From Paenibacillus lactis (lineage in GTDB: Bacteria > Bacillota > Bacilli > Paenibacillales > Paenibacillaceae): a stretch of 64,000 nt of DNA. The notes under the pieces were generated by a model. The model had not been told where the DNA came from. It did no database searches and saw only the letters and a program-made list of their open reading frames with translations. Location of the stretch: assembly GCF_017873605.1 (NCBI RefSeq), contig NZ_JAGGKI010000003.1, positions 248,001-312,000 on the forward strand, read 5' to 3'. The position numbers and the translations under genes were made by a program. Positions within the stretch are counted from its first letter, which is position 1. Every line of letters starts with the position of its first letter. Shown here piece after piece: positions 37,961 through 47,775 of the stretch.

Positions 37961-38449
37961 TTATCTGGCTGTATTCTGCAGCGAGAGGTTGTAGCATATG
38001 AACTCGCTGTCCTCCACGTATCCGGCCGATTCATAGAGCCGTCGCGCAGCGAGGTTCCCGGGATGGGTTGACAATGTAAGCCCGGCGGCCCCTGACCGCA
38101 CAGCGTGCTCCTTGGCTTGATTAAGCAGCATCCGTCCGATCCCATGCCCCCGGAATTCCTTCGCGACATAAAGATCGTTCAAGATCCATAACCGGGACAT
38201 CGAAAGGGAAGAGAAGGACGGATACAGCTGCACAAAGCCTGCAGCTTCCCACGCGGCGTCTGCGGGCTCCTGAAATGCAGCCGCAACGAAGATGACGGAG
38301 TCCCGCAGCTCTAGCCGCTCCCCGATAAACCGGGCCGCTCCGGCCGCATCATCCGGCTTACCGTAAAACATGCGATATTGATTAAACAAAGCTGCGACAG
38401 CGTTCAAATCACAGCCGTCAGCCTGATGGATCCGAAGCTTCGATCCCAT
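37961..38449 (-). CDS. GNAT family N-acetyltransferase
   Basis: 162 aa. The acetyl-CoA core is LWILNDLYVAKEFRGHGIGRMLLNQAKEHA, with the R/Q-x-x-G-x-G/A loop as RGHGIG, and the C-terminal NLAARRLYESAGYVED. The whole family length is present. Single gene. Substrate unknown. Confidence 0.88.
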   Translation of the reverse strand: MGSKLRIHQADGCDLNAVAALFNQYRMFYGKPDDAAGAARFIGERLELRDSVIFVAAAFQEPADAAWEAAGFVQLYPSFSSLSMSRLWILNDLYVAKEFRGHGIGRMLLNQAKEHAVRSGAAGLTLSTHPGNLAARRLYESAGYVEDSEFICYNLSLQNTAR

Positions 38450-38619: not shown

Positions 38620-39201
38620 TCATTGCGAGCAGTAACGCTCTCGATATTCATCCTCCAGCATGCTCATCCAGATTGAATCATGGTAGCGGTGATTGAAATA
38701 CAGCGCATCCCGCTGCACGCCTTCTCTCTTAAAGCCCACCTTCTCATAGGCTTTGATCGCCCGCCCGTTGTAATCGAACACCTGGAGCTCAATCCGGTGA
38801 AGATTCAGAATGCCGAAGCCATATTCCAGCAGCAGCTTGATCGATTCCGGTCCGTATCCCTTACCGAGATGCTGCTCCGAATCAATCGCAATCCGCAAGT
38901 TGGCATTCCGGTTAACTTGATCGATGTCCTGCAGCGCAATATCGCCGATTACCGCATCGTCATCCCGAAGCGCAATCAGAAGCAGCACGGCTGCATTGTC
39001 CCCTGATTTGGCCTCGATATACCGGCGGACCTCCTCAAGCGTGAATGCCCGCCGGGTCCCTGTCAGCCGCCTGATCTCCGGGTTGAACAGCATTTGAAAA
39101 TATCCTTCGGCATCCTCAGCCGATACGGGTCTTAGATACACCCGTTCTCCCTCCAGCAAACGTACCGGCCGAGGGTTCCATAACGTGGATGGTATGCTCA
39201 T
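38620..39201 (-). CDS. GNAT acetyltransferase, RimJ/RimL type
   Basis: 193 aa. It starts PRPVRLLEGERVYLRPVSAEDAEGYFQMLFNPEIRRLTG, the pattern of the ribosomal-protein alanine acetyltransferase group (Acetyltransf_3). The core is IAIDSEQHLGKGYGPESIKLLLEYGFGILNLHRIELQV, and the end is YEKVGFKREGVQRDALYFNHRYHDSIWMSML. AGGAGG precedes the ATG. Divergent from the MocR-like gene. Could act on a small molecule or peptide; no evidence favours a ribosomal protein. Confidence 0.88.
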   Translation of the reverse strand: MSIPSTLWNPRPVRLLEGERVYLRPVSAEDAEGYFQMLFNPEIRRLTGTRRAFTLEEVRRYIEAKSGDNAAVLLLIALRDDDAVIGDIALQDIDQVNRNANLRIAIDSEQHLGKGYGPESIKLLLEYGFGILNLHRIELQVFDYNGRAIKAYEKVGFKREGVQRDALYFNHRYHDSIWMSMLEDEYRERYCSQ

Positions 39202-39311
39202 ATTAAATGTGCCCTCCTGTTTTGTTTCCAGCTTAAATCCCTTATACTATATCAATGAATTGACCATAGCTGAATATACAGTTTTGAATCTATAAAAGGG
39301 ACAGATTTTGC

Positions 39312-40763
39312 ATGAAACAGATTCAGGTTCCGATCCACCAAACAGAGATGATGTCCGCTCTCGCGGGCTCCTCCGCGCCACTGTACGTCCAGGCGTATCA
39401 GTACATGAAGCGGGAGATTATCGCCAGCCGATGGCTCAATCAAGCCCGTCTGCCCTCCGTTCGCAAGCTGGCTGAGCTTCTTGGAATCAGCACGACGCCC
39501 GTCGAAATGGCTTACCAGCAGCTGCTCGCCGAAGGGTTTATCGTCAGCAGACCGCGAAGCGGGTATTTTGTGCAGACGCCGGACGATATCTTTCCGCTCC
39601 CGGCAGCACCGCCCCCGACGAACGGCCCGAAGCTCAAGCGACATCATCATTTTCCGTTTGATTTTCATATGTCCAAAAATGAGTATCGTCATTTTCCCGT
39701 CGCAGCCTGGAGGAAAGCATACAGCCGATGCCTGCAGGAGGAGTGCGCAGCGGAGATGCTGTTTTACGGCGATCCACAGGGAGAAGAGGGCCTTCGCCGT
39801 GAAATTGCAGCCTACGCAAAAAGCGTGCGCGGGGTTCAATGCACGCCCGAGCAGGTCATTATCGGTTCGGATCCCTATCCTCTGCTGGATATCATCTGCC
39901 GCCTGCTACGCCCATACGGGGACCGGGTCGGCGTTGAAAATCCGGGCTATCCCCAGTATCCCGAAGCGTTCAGGCAAAACGGCTTTCAGGTCATGCCGCT
40001 GGCCGTGCACGAGGACGGCATCCGCCATGAAGACCTTCAAGGGAGCGGGGTCAAGCTAGTAACGGTGTCGCCATCGCATCAGTTCCCGACCGGCGTCACC
40101 ATGCCGATCTCGCGGCGGCTGGCTCTGCTTCAATGGGCTCACGAGACCGAAGGGTTTATTATCGAGGATGACTACGACGGAGAATTCCGGTATTACGGCA
40201 GGCCCATTCCTTGCCTGCAGGGCCTCCGGTCCGACGGCCGGGTCATCTATATGAGCGGGTTCTCACAGGTTCTGTCCCCCGCGATCGGGGTCCATTATAT
40301 GATACTGCCCGCAGTCCTGCTGCCGGCATACCATCATTTGAAATTCCACTTGTTCCTGGAATGCACCGCCTCCAGACTGCAGCAGCTGGCCCTCGAACGC
40401 TTTATGAAAGAAGGCTATGTAGACCGGCATCTCCGCAAAATGAGGATGCTGCTCAGAAAGAAGCATGATCGCCTGATTGCTTCGATCCAGCGATACTTCG
40501 GAGAACGGGCCGTCATTAGCGGGAATGGAGCGGGATTTCATCTCATGCTGTCCATCACGCATCCGCTGTCCGCCCATGAGCTCGAGACCCTGGCCGAACA
40601 CGCGGGAATCCGCGTAAGCGCTGCGGATTATACGTGGCTCCCTGACACCCGTAGCTGCACGGCAACGGATCGCAGATCATTCATCGTCGGGTTCGGCGGT
40701 CTTCTGGAGGAAGAGATCGACGAAGGAATGAAGCGGCTTGCATCCTGCTGGCTGTCAACGTGA
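39312..40763 (+). CDS. MocR-type regulator (GntR HTH plus aminotransferase fold) lacking the PLP lysine
   Basis: 483 aa. A GntR winged helix (residues 22-90, LPSVRKLAELLGISTTPVEMAYQQLL) is fused to a class I aminotransferase domain (about 110-480). The fold motifs YGDPQGEEGLRREIA, ENPGYPQYPEAF and IIEDDYDGEFRYYG are kept. In family members the PLP-binding Lys lies in GTFSK; here the aligned sequence is SGFSQ, with Gln319 (40266-40268). It therefore should not form the usual Schiff base with PLP. Divergent from a GNAT gene. It could respond to another ligand. Confidence 0.88.
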   Translation: MKQIQVPIHQTEMMSALAGSSAPLYVQAYQYMKREIIASRWLNQARLPSVRKLAELLGISTTPVEMAYQQLLAEGFIVSRPRSGYFVQTPDDIFPLPAAPPPTNGPKLKRHHHFPFDFHMSKNEYRHFPVAAWRKAYSRCLQEECAAEMLFYGDPQGEEGLRREIAAYAKSVRGVQCTPEQVIIGSDPYPLLDIICRLLRPYGDRVGVENPGYPQYPEAFRQNGFQVMPLAVHEDGIRHEDLQGSGVKLVTVSPSHQFPTGVTMPISRRLALLQWAHETEGFIIEDDYDGEFRYYGRPIPCLQGLRSDGRVIYMSGFSQVLSPAIGVHYMILPAVLLPAYHHLKFHLFLECTASRLQQLALERFMKEGYVDRHLRKMRMLLRKKHDRLIASIQRYFGERAVISGNGAGFHLMLSITHPLSAHELETLAEHAGIRVSAADYTWLPDTRSCTATDRRSFIVGFGGLLEEEIDEGMKRLASCWLST

Positions 40764-40931: not shown

Positions 40932-41435
40932 TTAAACCGAACGGCCCACGATGACAAGATCCCGCTTAACCCCGTCCAGCTCGGCAACGCCCGGGAGAAG
41001 CCCCCACTGTTCGAAGCCGAATTTCCGGAGCAGCTTAAGGGAGGGCTCATTGTGGCCAAATACGAATCCGACCAGATTGCTGACGCGAAGCCGCGGACAT
41101 TCCTCCAGCGCCTTGGCGATCAGGATGCTGCCCGCGCCGATCCCCCGAAACTTCTCATTCACGTAGATGCTGATTTCGGCTGTTCCGTTATAAGCAGGAC
41201 GCCCGTAAAAGGATTGAAAGCTCATCCAGGCGACGATTTCGCTTCCAAAACGCATAACCCACAGCGGACGGTGGTCCTCGCTGTGCTCTTCGAACCAGCG
41301 AATGCGGCTCTCCACCGTCACCGGCTCCAGATCGGCGGTAACCTTTCGGCTTTCGATCGTAGAATTGTAGATGTCGACAATAGCCGGCAAATCCTCCATT
41401 ACGGCATAATCGATCTGATATTGATGCGCTGTCAT
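40932..41435 (-). CDS. GNAT acetyltransferase, phosphinothricin/methionine-sulfoximine type
   Basis: 167 aa. It has the Pat/MddA pattern: [54 protein letters not shown] with the acetyl-CoA loop RGIGAG, and the ending [24 protein letters not shown]. Such enzymes acetylate phosphinothricin-like or methionine sulfoximine and sulfone substrates. Single gene with its own terminator. Confidence 0.88.
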
Positions 41436-45314: not shown

Positions 45315-46139
45315 TTATCCCCAACGCTGGAGGAGCAGAACCACAAATAACAGAATGGCTGCTTCAAGCAGTTCATTCAGTGCGCCGTAGGTGTCTCCCG
45401 TCAGGCCGCCAAGGCGCCGGCTCATACGTCCTGCCACGGCCGCTCCGATCAGCCAGGTCAGGAACGGCGCAAGCACGAGTGCCGATAATCCGCTGATCCA
45501 AAGTTGAGTTGAATCCGTGACCAGCCCCAGGGTGACGATGACCACGAGCGTGACCAGAACCGCCATCAAGCCGGCCTGCAGCCTCCGCAGGTTGGATAAT
45601 CCGCTGAATAATGCAGCCAGCCCTTCACTGCCTCTTGCTACAGGCCAGCGGTACATTGCGTGCACCATAAACCAACGGCTCCAGACGGGTGCGAGCACAA
45701 GCAGAAGAGCTTCCTGCTTCCAGACACCGCCCGACAGCTCAAAAATCGATTGAATCAGCGAAACCTTCAGCAGCAGAAGCAGCGTACAAGCGATAACCCC
45801 CATCGCGCCTACCCGGCTATCTTTCATAATCTCGAGCATCCGCTCCCGCGACCGATGGCTGAGGAGGGCGTCCGTGCTGTCCATCCATCCGTCCAAATGA
45901 AGACCGCCGGTCAGCCCCACCCACGCGGTCAATGTGATCACCGAGGCCGGAAAGACCGGGAGAGCAAAGCTTAATCCCCATCCCAGCAGCGCCACCGTCA
46001 GGCCGATCGCGCCCCCTACCAGCGGATAAAAGACAACGCTCCGCTGCTGAACCTCCGGGGTAAAGGGAATCTCCCGCCGGATCGGAAACCTTGATAAAAA
46101 TTGAAAAGCGGCCGCAGCCGCTTCCATCAACCTGTTCAT
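45315..46139 (-). CDS. cobS: Adenosylcobinamide-GDP ribazoletransferase
   Basis: 274 aa, a membrane enzyme with about six helices. It joins AdoCbi-GDP to alpha-ribazole(-P), closing the nucleotide loop of B12. The signature GLHLDGWMDSTDALLSH (metal-binding Asp residues) is near residue 58; RVGAMGVIA and MVHAMYRWPVARGSEGL follow. It is the last gene of the riboswitch-led group; its ATG overlaps the cobU stop (ATGA, 46136-46139). Confidence 0.94.
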   Translation of the reverse strand: MNRLMEAAAAAFQFLSRFPIRREIPFTPEVQQRSVVFYPLVGGAIGLTVALLGWGLSFALPVFPASVITLTAWVGLTGGLHLDGWMDSTDALLSHRSRERMLEIMKDSRVGAMGVIACTLLLLLKVSLIQSIFELSGGVWKQEALLLVLAPVWSRWFMVHAMYRWPVARGSEGLAALFSGLSNLRRLQAGLMAVLVTLVVIVTLGLVTDSTQLWISGLSALVLAPFLTWLIGAAVAGRMSRRLGGLTGDTYGALNELLEAAILLFVVLLLQRWG

Positions 46140-46711
46140 ATTCGATACTCCCTGCTCTTGATTTCAATCGGAATCCCTGCTGTTACGAGAAATACCTCAT
46201 GACAGACCTGGGCCAGCCGCTGGTTCATCATCCCAGCCCAATCGCGGAATATTCGGCCGAGCGGATACTCGGGAACGATCCCCGAGCCCACTTCATTCGT
46301 TACGAGAATTACCGTTCCCGGATACGCCTGAACGGCTCGGACAAGCCTGCCGATATCCAACTGCAGCCGTTCCTCCATGGCCGCGGTTCCTTCCGGCTCG
46401 ACCTGGAGCAGCACATTCGTAAGCCACAGCGTCAGGCAATCCACGACGACCGCCGAGGCATCCGATGCCGATTGGCCGAGCGTTTCGAGCAGTTCGGGCA
46501 AGGCCACGGGCTCTTCGACCGTCTCCCACCGATAATCCGCATCGCCGCGGCGGTCCTGATGAATCCGAATCCGTTCCTTCATTTCATCGTCATACGCCTG
46601 AGCCGTCGCTATATAAATGCCCGAGGGCGACCGTTTCATGCAGAGCTTCTCGGCGAACGAGCTCTTGCCGCTCCGGGCGCCTCCCGTTACGAGCGAGCTT
46701 AATGGGTTCAT
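46136..46711 (-). CDS. cobU: Adenosylcobinamide kinase / adenosylcobinamide-phosphate guanylyltransferase
   Basis: 191 aa from the ATG at 46711, with GGAGGGG upstream. It has the P-loop VTGGARSGKSSFAE at the N-terminus, YIATAQAYDDEMKERI, and the central IHQDRRG with the catalytic His. It phosphorylates AdoCbi and transfers GMP from GTP. Its start overlaps the cobT stop and its stop overlaps the cobS start, so the three genes are translationally coupled. Confidence 0.94.
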   Translation of the reverse strand: MNPLSSLVTGGARSGKSSFAEKLCMKRSPSGIYIATAQAYDDEMKERIRIHQDRRGDADYRWETVEEPVALPELLETLGQSASDASAVVVDCLTLWLTNVLLQVEPEGTAAMEERLQLDIGRLVRAVQAYPGTVILVTNEVGSGIVPEYPLGRIFRDWAGMMNQRLAQVCHEVFLVTAGIPIEIKSREYRI

Positions 46712-47775
46712 ATTTCCCCTCCGCTTATTCCCGCGCTTTCGAAGGTTGCCATCTCGCTCATAATCCGGCAGGCGGCTTCTATCATATGAAGGCATAACAC
46801 GCCCCCGGTTCCTTCGCCAAGGCGCATGTCCATATGCAGCATCGGAGACAGTTCCAGCGCTTGCAGCAGCAAGGCATGTCCACGCTCCTTCGAATGATGG
46901 GAAGCAATCATATAGGAACGCGATTCGGGACAAATCGCCGCAGCAATCAGAGCGGCGGCACTGGATATGAAGCCGTCGATAACGACAGGGCAGCCCTTGG
47001 CCGCCGCGCCGAGAATGAGTCCGGCCAGACCGCCGATCTCATACCCGCCGACCTTGGCCAGCACATCCACCGGATCTTCCGCCATGGGACGATTGACCGT
47101 GATCGCCTGCTCGACAACGCGGATCTTATGCATCAGCCGCTCGTCGCTAACGCCGGTTCCCCGTCCAACGACCTCAGCCGGGGGCTTGCCGGACAGAACC
47201 GCGAAGACCGCGGCGCTCGGCGTCGTATTGCCGATGCCCATTTCCCCGGTCACGAACAACCGGGTTCCATGGGAGTAGAGCTCGGCGGCTACCTCGGCGC
47301 CGGTCATAATCGCCTGTTCCGCCTCCGCCCTTGTCATCGCAGGCCCTTTTGCAATATTTTTCGTTCCCTTATTAATTTTACGGGAAAGGAGACGTTCATG
47401 GGACAGGTCCGCCGCAACGCCGATATCCACGCACAGCACGTCCGCGCCCGCTTGGCGGGCCAATACGTTGACGGCAGCGCCGCCGTTCAGGAAATTCATG
47501 ACCATCTGGGGCGTTACCTCCGACGGGAAGGCGCTGACGCCCTCCTCGCACACCCCATGGTCGCCGGCCATGACCACAACGGCCTTTTTCTTGAATGAGG
47601 GCTTGATCGTCCCCGTAATTCCCGCGAGCTGAATCGCCAGCGATTCCAGCTTGCCGAGGCTCCCGGGAGGTTTCGTCAGCTTGTCCAAATAGGCGGCGGC
47701 TTCCGCCTGCGCCCGGGCATCGGGCGCGGTGATTGTTCCAACCGATCGCGTCAATCGGTCCATGAGCTCCTTCAT
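46708..47775 (-). CDS. cobT: Nicotinate-nucleotide:dimethylbenzimidazole phosphoribosyltransferase
   Basis: 355 aa, the usual length. It activates the lower-ligand base to alpha-ribazole phosphate using nicotinate mononucleotide. Motifs: LTKPPGSLGKLE near residue 33, VVMAGDHGVCEEGVSAFP, EMGIGNTTPSAA, and the C-terminal GEGTGGVL containing the catalytic Glu. AGGAGG-like site upstream. No base synthesis gene such as bluB is in the window, so the base may be made elsewhere or scavenged. Confidence 0.95.
   Translation of the reverse strand: MKELMDRLTRSVGTITAPDARAQAEAAAYLDKLTKPPGSLGKLESLAIQLAGITGTIKPSFKKKAVVVMAGDHGVCEEGVSAFPSEVTPQMVMNFLNGGAAVNVLARQAGADVLCVDIGVAADLSHERLLSRKINKGTKNIAKGPAMTRAEAEQAIMTGAEVAAELYSHGTRLFVTGEMGIGNTTPSAAVFAVLSGKPPAEVVGRGTGVSDERLMHKIRVVEQAITVNRPMAEDPVDVLAKVGGYEIGGLAGLILGAAAKGCPVVIDGFISSAAALIAAAICPESRSYMIASHHSKERGHALLLQALELSPMLHMDMRLGEGTGGVLCLHMIEAACRIMSEMATFESAGISGGEI

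Follow-up and report, generated by a model that had tools for sequence, protein, structure and literature searches.

Can a MocR-type transcription regulator still sense a ligand after losing the lysine that binds pyridoxal phosphate (PLP)? The question is raised by a gene in the window, that is, the whole 64,000-nucleotide stretch of Paenibacillus lactis DNA analyzed here. In the available part of one report, a conserved lysine is described in all MocR-like regulators (PMC2018728), and the accessible text of another gives Asp279 and Lys312 as conserved in all its MocR clusters (PMC6677901). The window gene carries a glutamine codon at this site. Its relevant features, with counts from the clade of 86 relatives delineated below, are as follows:

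39312..40763, + strand: MocR-type regulator of 483 amino acids with Gln replacing the PLP lysine (Pfam GntR and Aminotran_1_2; GabR/PdxR fold)
40266..40268, + strand: codon CAG of Gln319, at the GabR Lys312 position (phmmer alignment; Gln in 86/86 of the clade)
40287..40289, + strand: codon GGG of Gly326, at the GabR Arg319 position (Cys in 71, Gly in 12 and Ser in 3 of the 86)
39870..39872, + strand: codon GAT of Asp187, an acid in the phosphate-binding loop (Asp/Glu in 84/86 of the clade, 0/30 outside)
39666..39668, + strand: codon CAT of His119, aligned with GabR His114 (His in 85/86 of the clade)
40167..40172, + strand: Asp286-Asp287, retained pocket acids corresponding to GabR Asp279 and the next residue (85/86 and 86/86)

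Both domains of a MocR protein are recognizable in the translation: an N-terminal GntR winged helix-turn-helix (PF00392, 51.1 bits against a cut-off of 27) and a C-terminal fold type I aminotransferase-like domain (PF00155, 63.9 bits against 19.7). GabR of Bacillus subtilis (4n0b, 5x03) has the same two domains and fold, and PdxR of Bacillus clausii (7pq9, 7zn5) is the best PDB sequence match (E 1.3e-82). In the phmmer alignments, Gln319 pairs with the FSK-motif lysine of both GabR (4n0b) and PdxR (7pq9). Seven residues farther on, Gly326 pairs with the arginine of the R-x-x-Y motif, which is GabR Arg319, the PLP-phosphate arginine. The alignments thus bear out the preliminary description, made from the letters alone, in which Gln was read in place of the PLP lysine and the downstream R-L-G-Y motif was reported lost; the ENPGYPQYP and DDYDGEFRYYG motifs that it described as kept are both found in the protein. 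Every one of GabR Lys312, Arg319, Arg207 and Arg430 is replaced in the alignment, the last two being the arginines that hold the GABA carboxylate; position 215 is Leu in 71/86 members of the clade. The window protein therefore combines both MocR domains and a MocR-like operator pattern with the absence of the Schiff-base lysine and the phosphate arginine. It is a descendant of MocR proteins that has lost the residues on which their cofactor depends.

Names assigned by profile point elsewhere. The NCBIfam PdxR model NF052282 gives the protein 457.3 bits against a cut-off of 320 and, together with the B. clausii PdxR match in the PDB, would make it an ordinary PdxR-type B6 regulator. This is highly improbable: Gln and Gly in the window protein stand where B. 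clausii PdxR carries its FSK lysine and arginine, and the conserved partner gene, described below, encodes a GNAT acetyltransferase. Linkage to pdxS was also sought within the same genome, where pdxS lies on a different contig (C22) from the window (C3), and assignment as PdxR by context was accordingly rejected. A score so far above the cut-off despite the missing lysine is a likely source of misnaming.

To delineate the group, 116 distinct MocR-type proteins drawn from genus and family searches and from the window's own genome were aligned, with the fragment L030 omitted. Position 319 is Gln in 86 of them and Lys in 30, the latter (K-type) being a nonrandom sample of the 21 nearest by score and 9 paralogues from the window's genome. 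These nine, all the other aligned MocR-type proteins of that genome, have both the Lys and the Arg. With columns 319 and 326 excluded from the tree, the 86 Gln proteins form one side of a single branch (SH-aLRT 99), such that one change is enough; the tree is from a quick search and has long branches among the distant K-type rows. On this evidence, the lysine-less regulators are best described as a conserved lineage of single origin, with members in Paenibacillus, its relatives and Brevibacillus.

The lineage is widespread. Matches at E 1e-80 or better were found in 56/100 genomes of the genus, and matches at E 1e-110 or better in at least 90/394 genomes of the family, in 9/19 genera. The latter count is a lower bound because at most four candidates per genome were scored at E 1e-110; an order-wide profile search recovered four family members that the family search had missed, and the family-search matches in G235, G236 and G263 were left out of the follow-up. 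Among the matches listed in the order-wide search (392 genomes), scores are either at least 669 bits or at most 580, an interrupted copy in G048 excepted. Gln319, His119 and an acid at 187 are common to the ten proteins fetched from above this gap, of which six belong to other families, and each of the ten has the GNAT gene nearby (8 divergent, 2 downstream). Of ten proteins from below the gap, eight carry Lys and two Arg, and the GNAT accompanies none of them. Named records extend the Gln type to Brevibacillus, Chengkuizengella and one Bacillus sp.: Gln is present in 16/80 named loci, all 16 with a GNAT nearby (15 divergent, 1 convergent), and a GNAT was found beside 0/64 named loci without Gln. 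Some of these loci come from the same genomes as loci in the other counts.

Outside the clade, other MocR-type proteins without the lysine were observed (L190, L195, L196, L203, L197, L299 and L300). Arg takes its place in Atopococcus, Acidobacteriales, Granulicella, Steroidobacter and two members of the order, and Asn in Peptostreptococcus. Lysine loss in MocR-type proteins may thus be recurrent. The protein of locus L302 retains the lysine, whereas Cys replaces its phosphate arginine, which resembles a half-way state.

A sequencing error at the codon, which the preliminary description had named as a possible refutation, or a pseudogene would be the simplest reading of a single anomalous gene. 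Decayed copies do occur: the regulator of the closest relative (L030) is split into two frames, that of L081 is interrupted near the N-terminus, and L248 retains only remnants of the regulator beside an intact operator. The window's own frame is intact, however, and the contrast between Gln throughout a monophyletic clade of 86 and Lys in 30/30 other MocR-type proteins led us to reject error or chance mutation; for the clade as a whole the reading is refuted, and for this gene we give it next to no credence. Selection points the same way. Of 20 close pairs, 19 give a dN/dS of 0.08-0.20, a result that also holds when the aminotransferase-like domain is taken by itself; L133 and L136, the remaining pair, differ by too few changes. 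Such values indicate that the aminotransferase-like domain is not decaying.

The pocket of the clade differs from that of its relatives in more than the lysine. Arg occupies position 326 in 30/30 of the K-type proteins and in no clade member, and position 119, where the clade has His, is mostly Asn, Arg or Ala outside. Apart from the two acids in the list above, Tyr213, His256 and His410 are retained in 86/86 clade members each, and Tyr288 in most. Over ten pocket-equivalent sites, picked by the GabR alignment after inspection of the sequences, 86/86 clade members carry a net charge of -2 or -3 and 30/30 K-type proteins one of -1 to +1. A conserved lysine elsewhere in the pocket, the other refutation foreseen for the glutamine claim, was sought across the clade. 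Only Lys384 reaches at least 90% conservation (85/86); it sits in a long helix predicted at 369-399, and each of the 30 K-type proteins likewise has Lys or Arg there, so Lys384 was rejected as a substitute and the claim stands. The predicted fold is nonetheless that of a MocR effector domain: the AlphaFold model of the window protein (pLDDT 89.8) superimposes on the C-terminal domain of GabR with Z 48.4 and an rmsd of 1.5 A over 362 residues, and its domain on B. clausii PdxR with Z 46.2 and 1.9 A.

The gene to which the regulator is tied lies immediately upstream in the opposite orientation:

38620..39201, - strand: partner GNAT acetyltransferase, SpeG/RimL-like, divergent from the regulator (Pfam Acetyltransf_3; linkage; fold)

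An orthologue of this GNAT is immediately divergent in 84/87 clade copies (the 86 plus the split L030), including L076, where the GNAT itself is in two pieces. In the remaining three (L109-L111), it lies 4.6 kb from the regulator, still divergent. The arrangement was seen in 0/25 K-type loci, within flanks of 3 kb (1.5 kb in two); one of the 25 has a 26% match on the same strand. The GNAT is present in 174/394 family genomes, many of which have no such regulator, and hence does not need it. Regions from 20 of the 174 were fetched; for example, five window-type loci (L231-L235) keep the GNAT and the neighboring genes but have no MocR.

As to its function, the closest PDB folds among the matches listed are SpeG spermidine acetyltransferases (TM to target 0.91-0.94 and 27-28% identity for the first rows), and the best profile match is 6vfm. 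The partner thus resembles the SpeG spermidine N-acetyltransferase in fold and family, but its N-terminal loop aligns poorly, and it passed no cut-off among the NCBIfam models, scoring 73.5 bits against 218 for the SpeG equivalog PRK15130. Two further GNAT genes flank the regulator-GNAT pair (40932-41435 and 37961-38449), so that a 3.5-kb span holds three different GNATs; genes of the 40932-41435 type are found again in window-type loci. Farther along the window, translations at 45315-47775 (-) resemble, by eye, cobalamin late genes of the CobS, CobU and CobT types. The association of a MocR-type regulator with an acetyltransferase is not unprecedented in itself, as RimI- and RimL-type acetyltransferases are listed in MocR regulons in the portion of PMC5320631 available. 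In that same portion, the regulators are PLP-dependent MocR proteins, mostly accompanied by B6 genes.

The region between the two genes contains the candidate operator:

39202..39311, no strand: divergent promoter region of 110 bp, common to the regulator and the GNAT
39261..39266, + strand: site corresponding to the left, inverted box; it reads TGACCA in the window, diverged from the TGTATA that prevails in the clade
39275..39281, + strand: operator box TATACAG, direct box 1
39299..39306, + strand: second direct operator box (box 2), GGACAGAT, whose first base is 24 bp past that of box 1

The dyad TGTATA-N8-TATACA is found with at most 2 mismatches in 71/84 clade loci, against about 1.4/84 in shuffles that preserved base composition only. 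In the direct pair, GGACAGAT starts 24 bp (78/84 loci) or 25 bp (4/84) after the start of TATACA, and TATACA plus GGACAGAT at this spacing occur with at most 2/14 mismatches in 78/84. The strings for all boxes were chosen after inspection of the sequences. In the window, the direct pair is intact and the dyad has 3/12 mismatches, all in the inverted half, a divergence seen across the window's own subclade. A change in the DNA-reading head that might explain it was sought, and only columns 41 and 50 differ at the thresholds we set. With up to 3 mismatches allowed, the window's genome contains a single copy of its 22-base operator. The putative operator would thus be a MocR-type box array, consisting of a direct pair of boxes plus, for most clade members, an inverted box; the consulted section of PMC5320631 describes binding of mixed direct and inverted repeats by B. 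clausii PdxR.

The boxes follow the regulator, which marks the GNAT as a target. Among the 16 fetched GNAT loci with no detectable regulator, the direct pair is absent (at least 4 mismatches) from all 16 and the dyad from 15, with L237 keeping it at 2 mismatches. For the dyad, comparison of 71/84 with 1/16 gives a Fisher value of 2e-9, which is not a true probability because the loci are related, and in many of the regulator-less loci the whole upstream region has changed, making box loss weaker evidence than the count suggests. Conversely, L246 and L247, two of the three loci with a moved regulator (4.6 kb off), have a perfect dyad and direct pair next to the GNAT, as does L248, with its regulator remnants. 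In L250, where a diverged regulator once more carries Gln, both elements are nearly perfect. By eye, a second version of the array, with spacer 7, precedes the moved regulator in L109-L111, and a degenerate reversed copy precedes the GNAT in L285 and L286, where the latter is downstream on the same strand. The dyad could instead represent two overlapping -10 elements, and GGACAGAT the ribosome-binding site of the regulator. Against this, GGACAGAT keeps a constant distance from TATACA but not from the called start of the regulator, where the spacing differs greatly between loci; L246 and L247, moreover, retain an intact pair next to the GNAT although their regulator is 4.6 kb away. Control of the GNAT by the regulator is thus a well-supported prediction from linkage and boxes, and the regulator probably autoregulates as well.

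What, then, does the altered domain do? The preliminary description, which did not extend to the clade, the partner GNAT or the operator, had suggested possible ligand sensing with no PLP Schiff base involved. This suggestion fits the computed data: clade-wide loss of the lysine and the arginine, the acid in the phosphate loop, the GabR-like model and purifying selection are all consistent with it. The account that we favor, and hold to be reasonably probable, is that a PLP-free MocR descendant represses the GNAT and itself until noncovalent binding of a ligand, possibly a cationic amine, in what was the PLP pocket. The aminotransferase-like domain, with its GabR/PdxR-like fold, would presumably dimerize. 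With a lysine Schiff base precluded and the phosphate arginine gone, PLP would have been given up, and the regulator is likely to lack it. The regulator would bind the box array in the promoter shared with the SpeG-like GNAT, repressing both genes, and a ligand entering the pocket would release it from DNA with no covalent chemistry; both repression and noncovalent sensing are inferred. In the available part of PMC8739950, an engineered EnuR Lys302His variant without PLP remains dimeric and acts as a constitutive repressor; a MocR protein without the lysine is thus able to repress. Like the clade, this mutant has no lysine at the cofactor site and still binds DNA; as described there, it is a laboratory construct unresponsive to inducer, whereas the change in the clade is natural, fixed and accompanied by other pocket changes.

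The same mutant is also in line with a repressor locked on DNA, in which the domain is a dimerization scaffold that binds no ligand and the GNAT is tuned by the level of the regulator or by other factors. That several loci keep the GNAT after regulator loss is compatible with such a role. We consider it rather unlikely, as the strict conservation of Gln319, the new His119 and acid at 187, and the retained Asp286, Tyr213, His256 and His410 all exceed the needs of a scaffold; the pocket of the clade is conserved and altered in character rather than eroded, which favors noncovalent sensing over a locked repressor.

Retention of Asp286 (which would contact the pyridine nitrogen), Tyr213 and, mostly, Tyr288 also makes noncovalent binding of a cofactor possible. 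Lysine-less fold type I sugar dehydratases such as ColD bind PMP or a PLP-amine adduct without a Schiff base. By the same means, the regulator might bind PMP or a ready-made PLP-amine adduct and so monitor B6 or amine status, with Gln319 perhaps hydrogen bonding the cofactor amine. Loss of the phosphate arginine in 86/86 members and the phosphate-loop acid in 84/86 argue against this, and it seems to us less credible still than the locked repressor.

Under the favored account of noncovalent sensing, a cationic amine would suit both the acidic pocket and the SpeG-like partner as the ligand, perhaps one that the GNAT acetylates; the ligand type is conjecture. The most specific form of the proposal, a PLP-aldimine sensor turned PLP-free receptor whose emptied acidic pocket admits a cationic amine that relieves repression of its own acetyltransferase, is offered as a tentative possibility.

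We recognized no report of a lysine-less or PLP-independent MocR protein in our literature search; an earlier mention is possible, the reviews Bramucci 2011 and Tramonti 2018 having been outside its scope. The MocR literature, as far as represented in the available parts of PMC6677901 and PMC2018728, treats the lysine as general, and the clade departs from it. A profile-based label of MocR or PdxR can accordingly mislead about the cofactor. Because this lysine-less clade occurs in nature, is conserved and has one linked target gene, it makes PLP-free sensing by a MocR effector domain directly testable, allows one to ask which parts of that domain carry the signal, and may reveal the substrate that the partner GNAT family acetylates.
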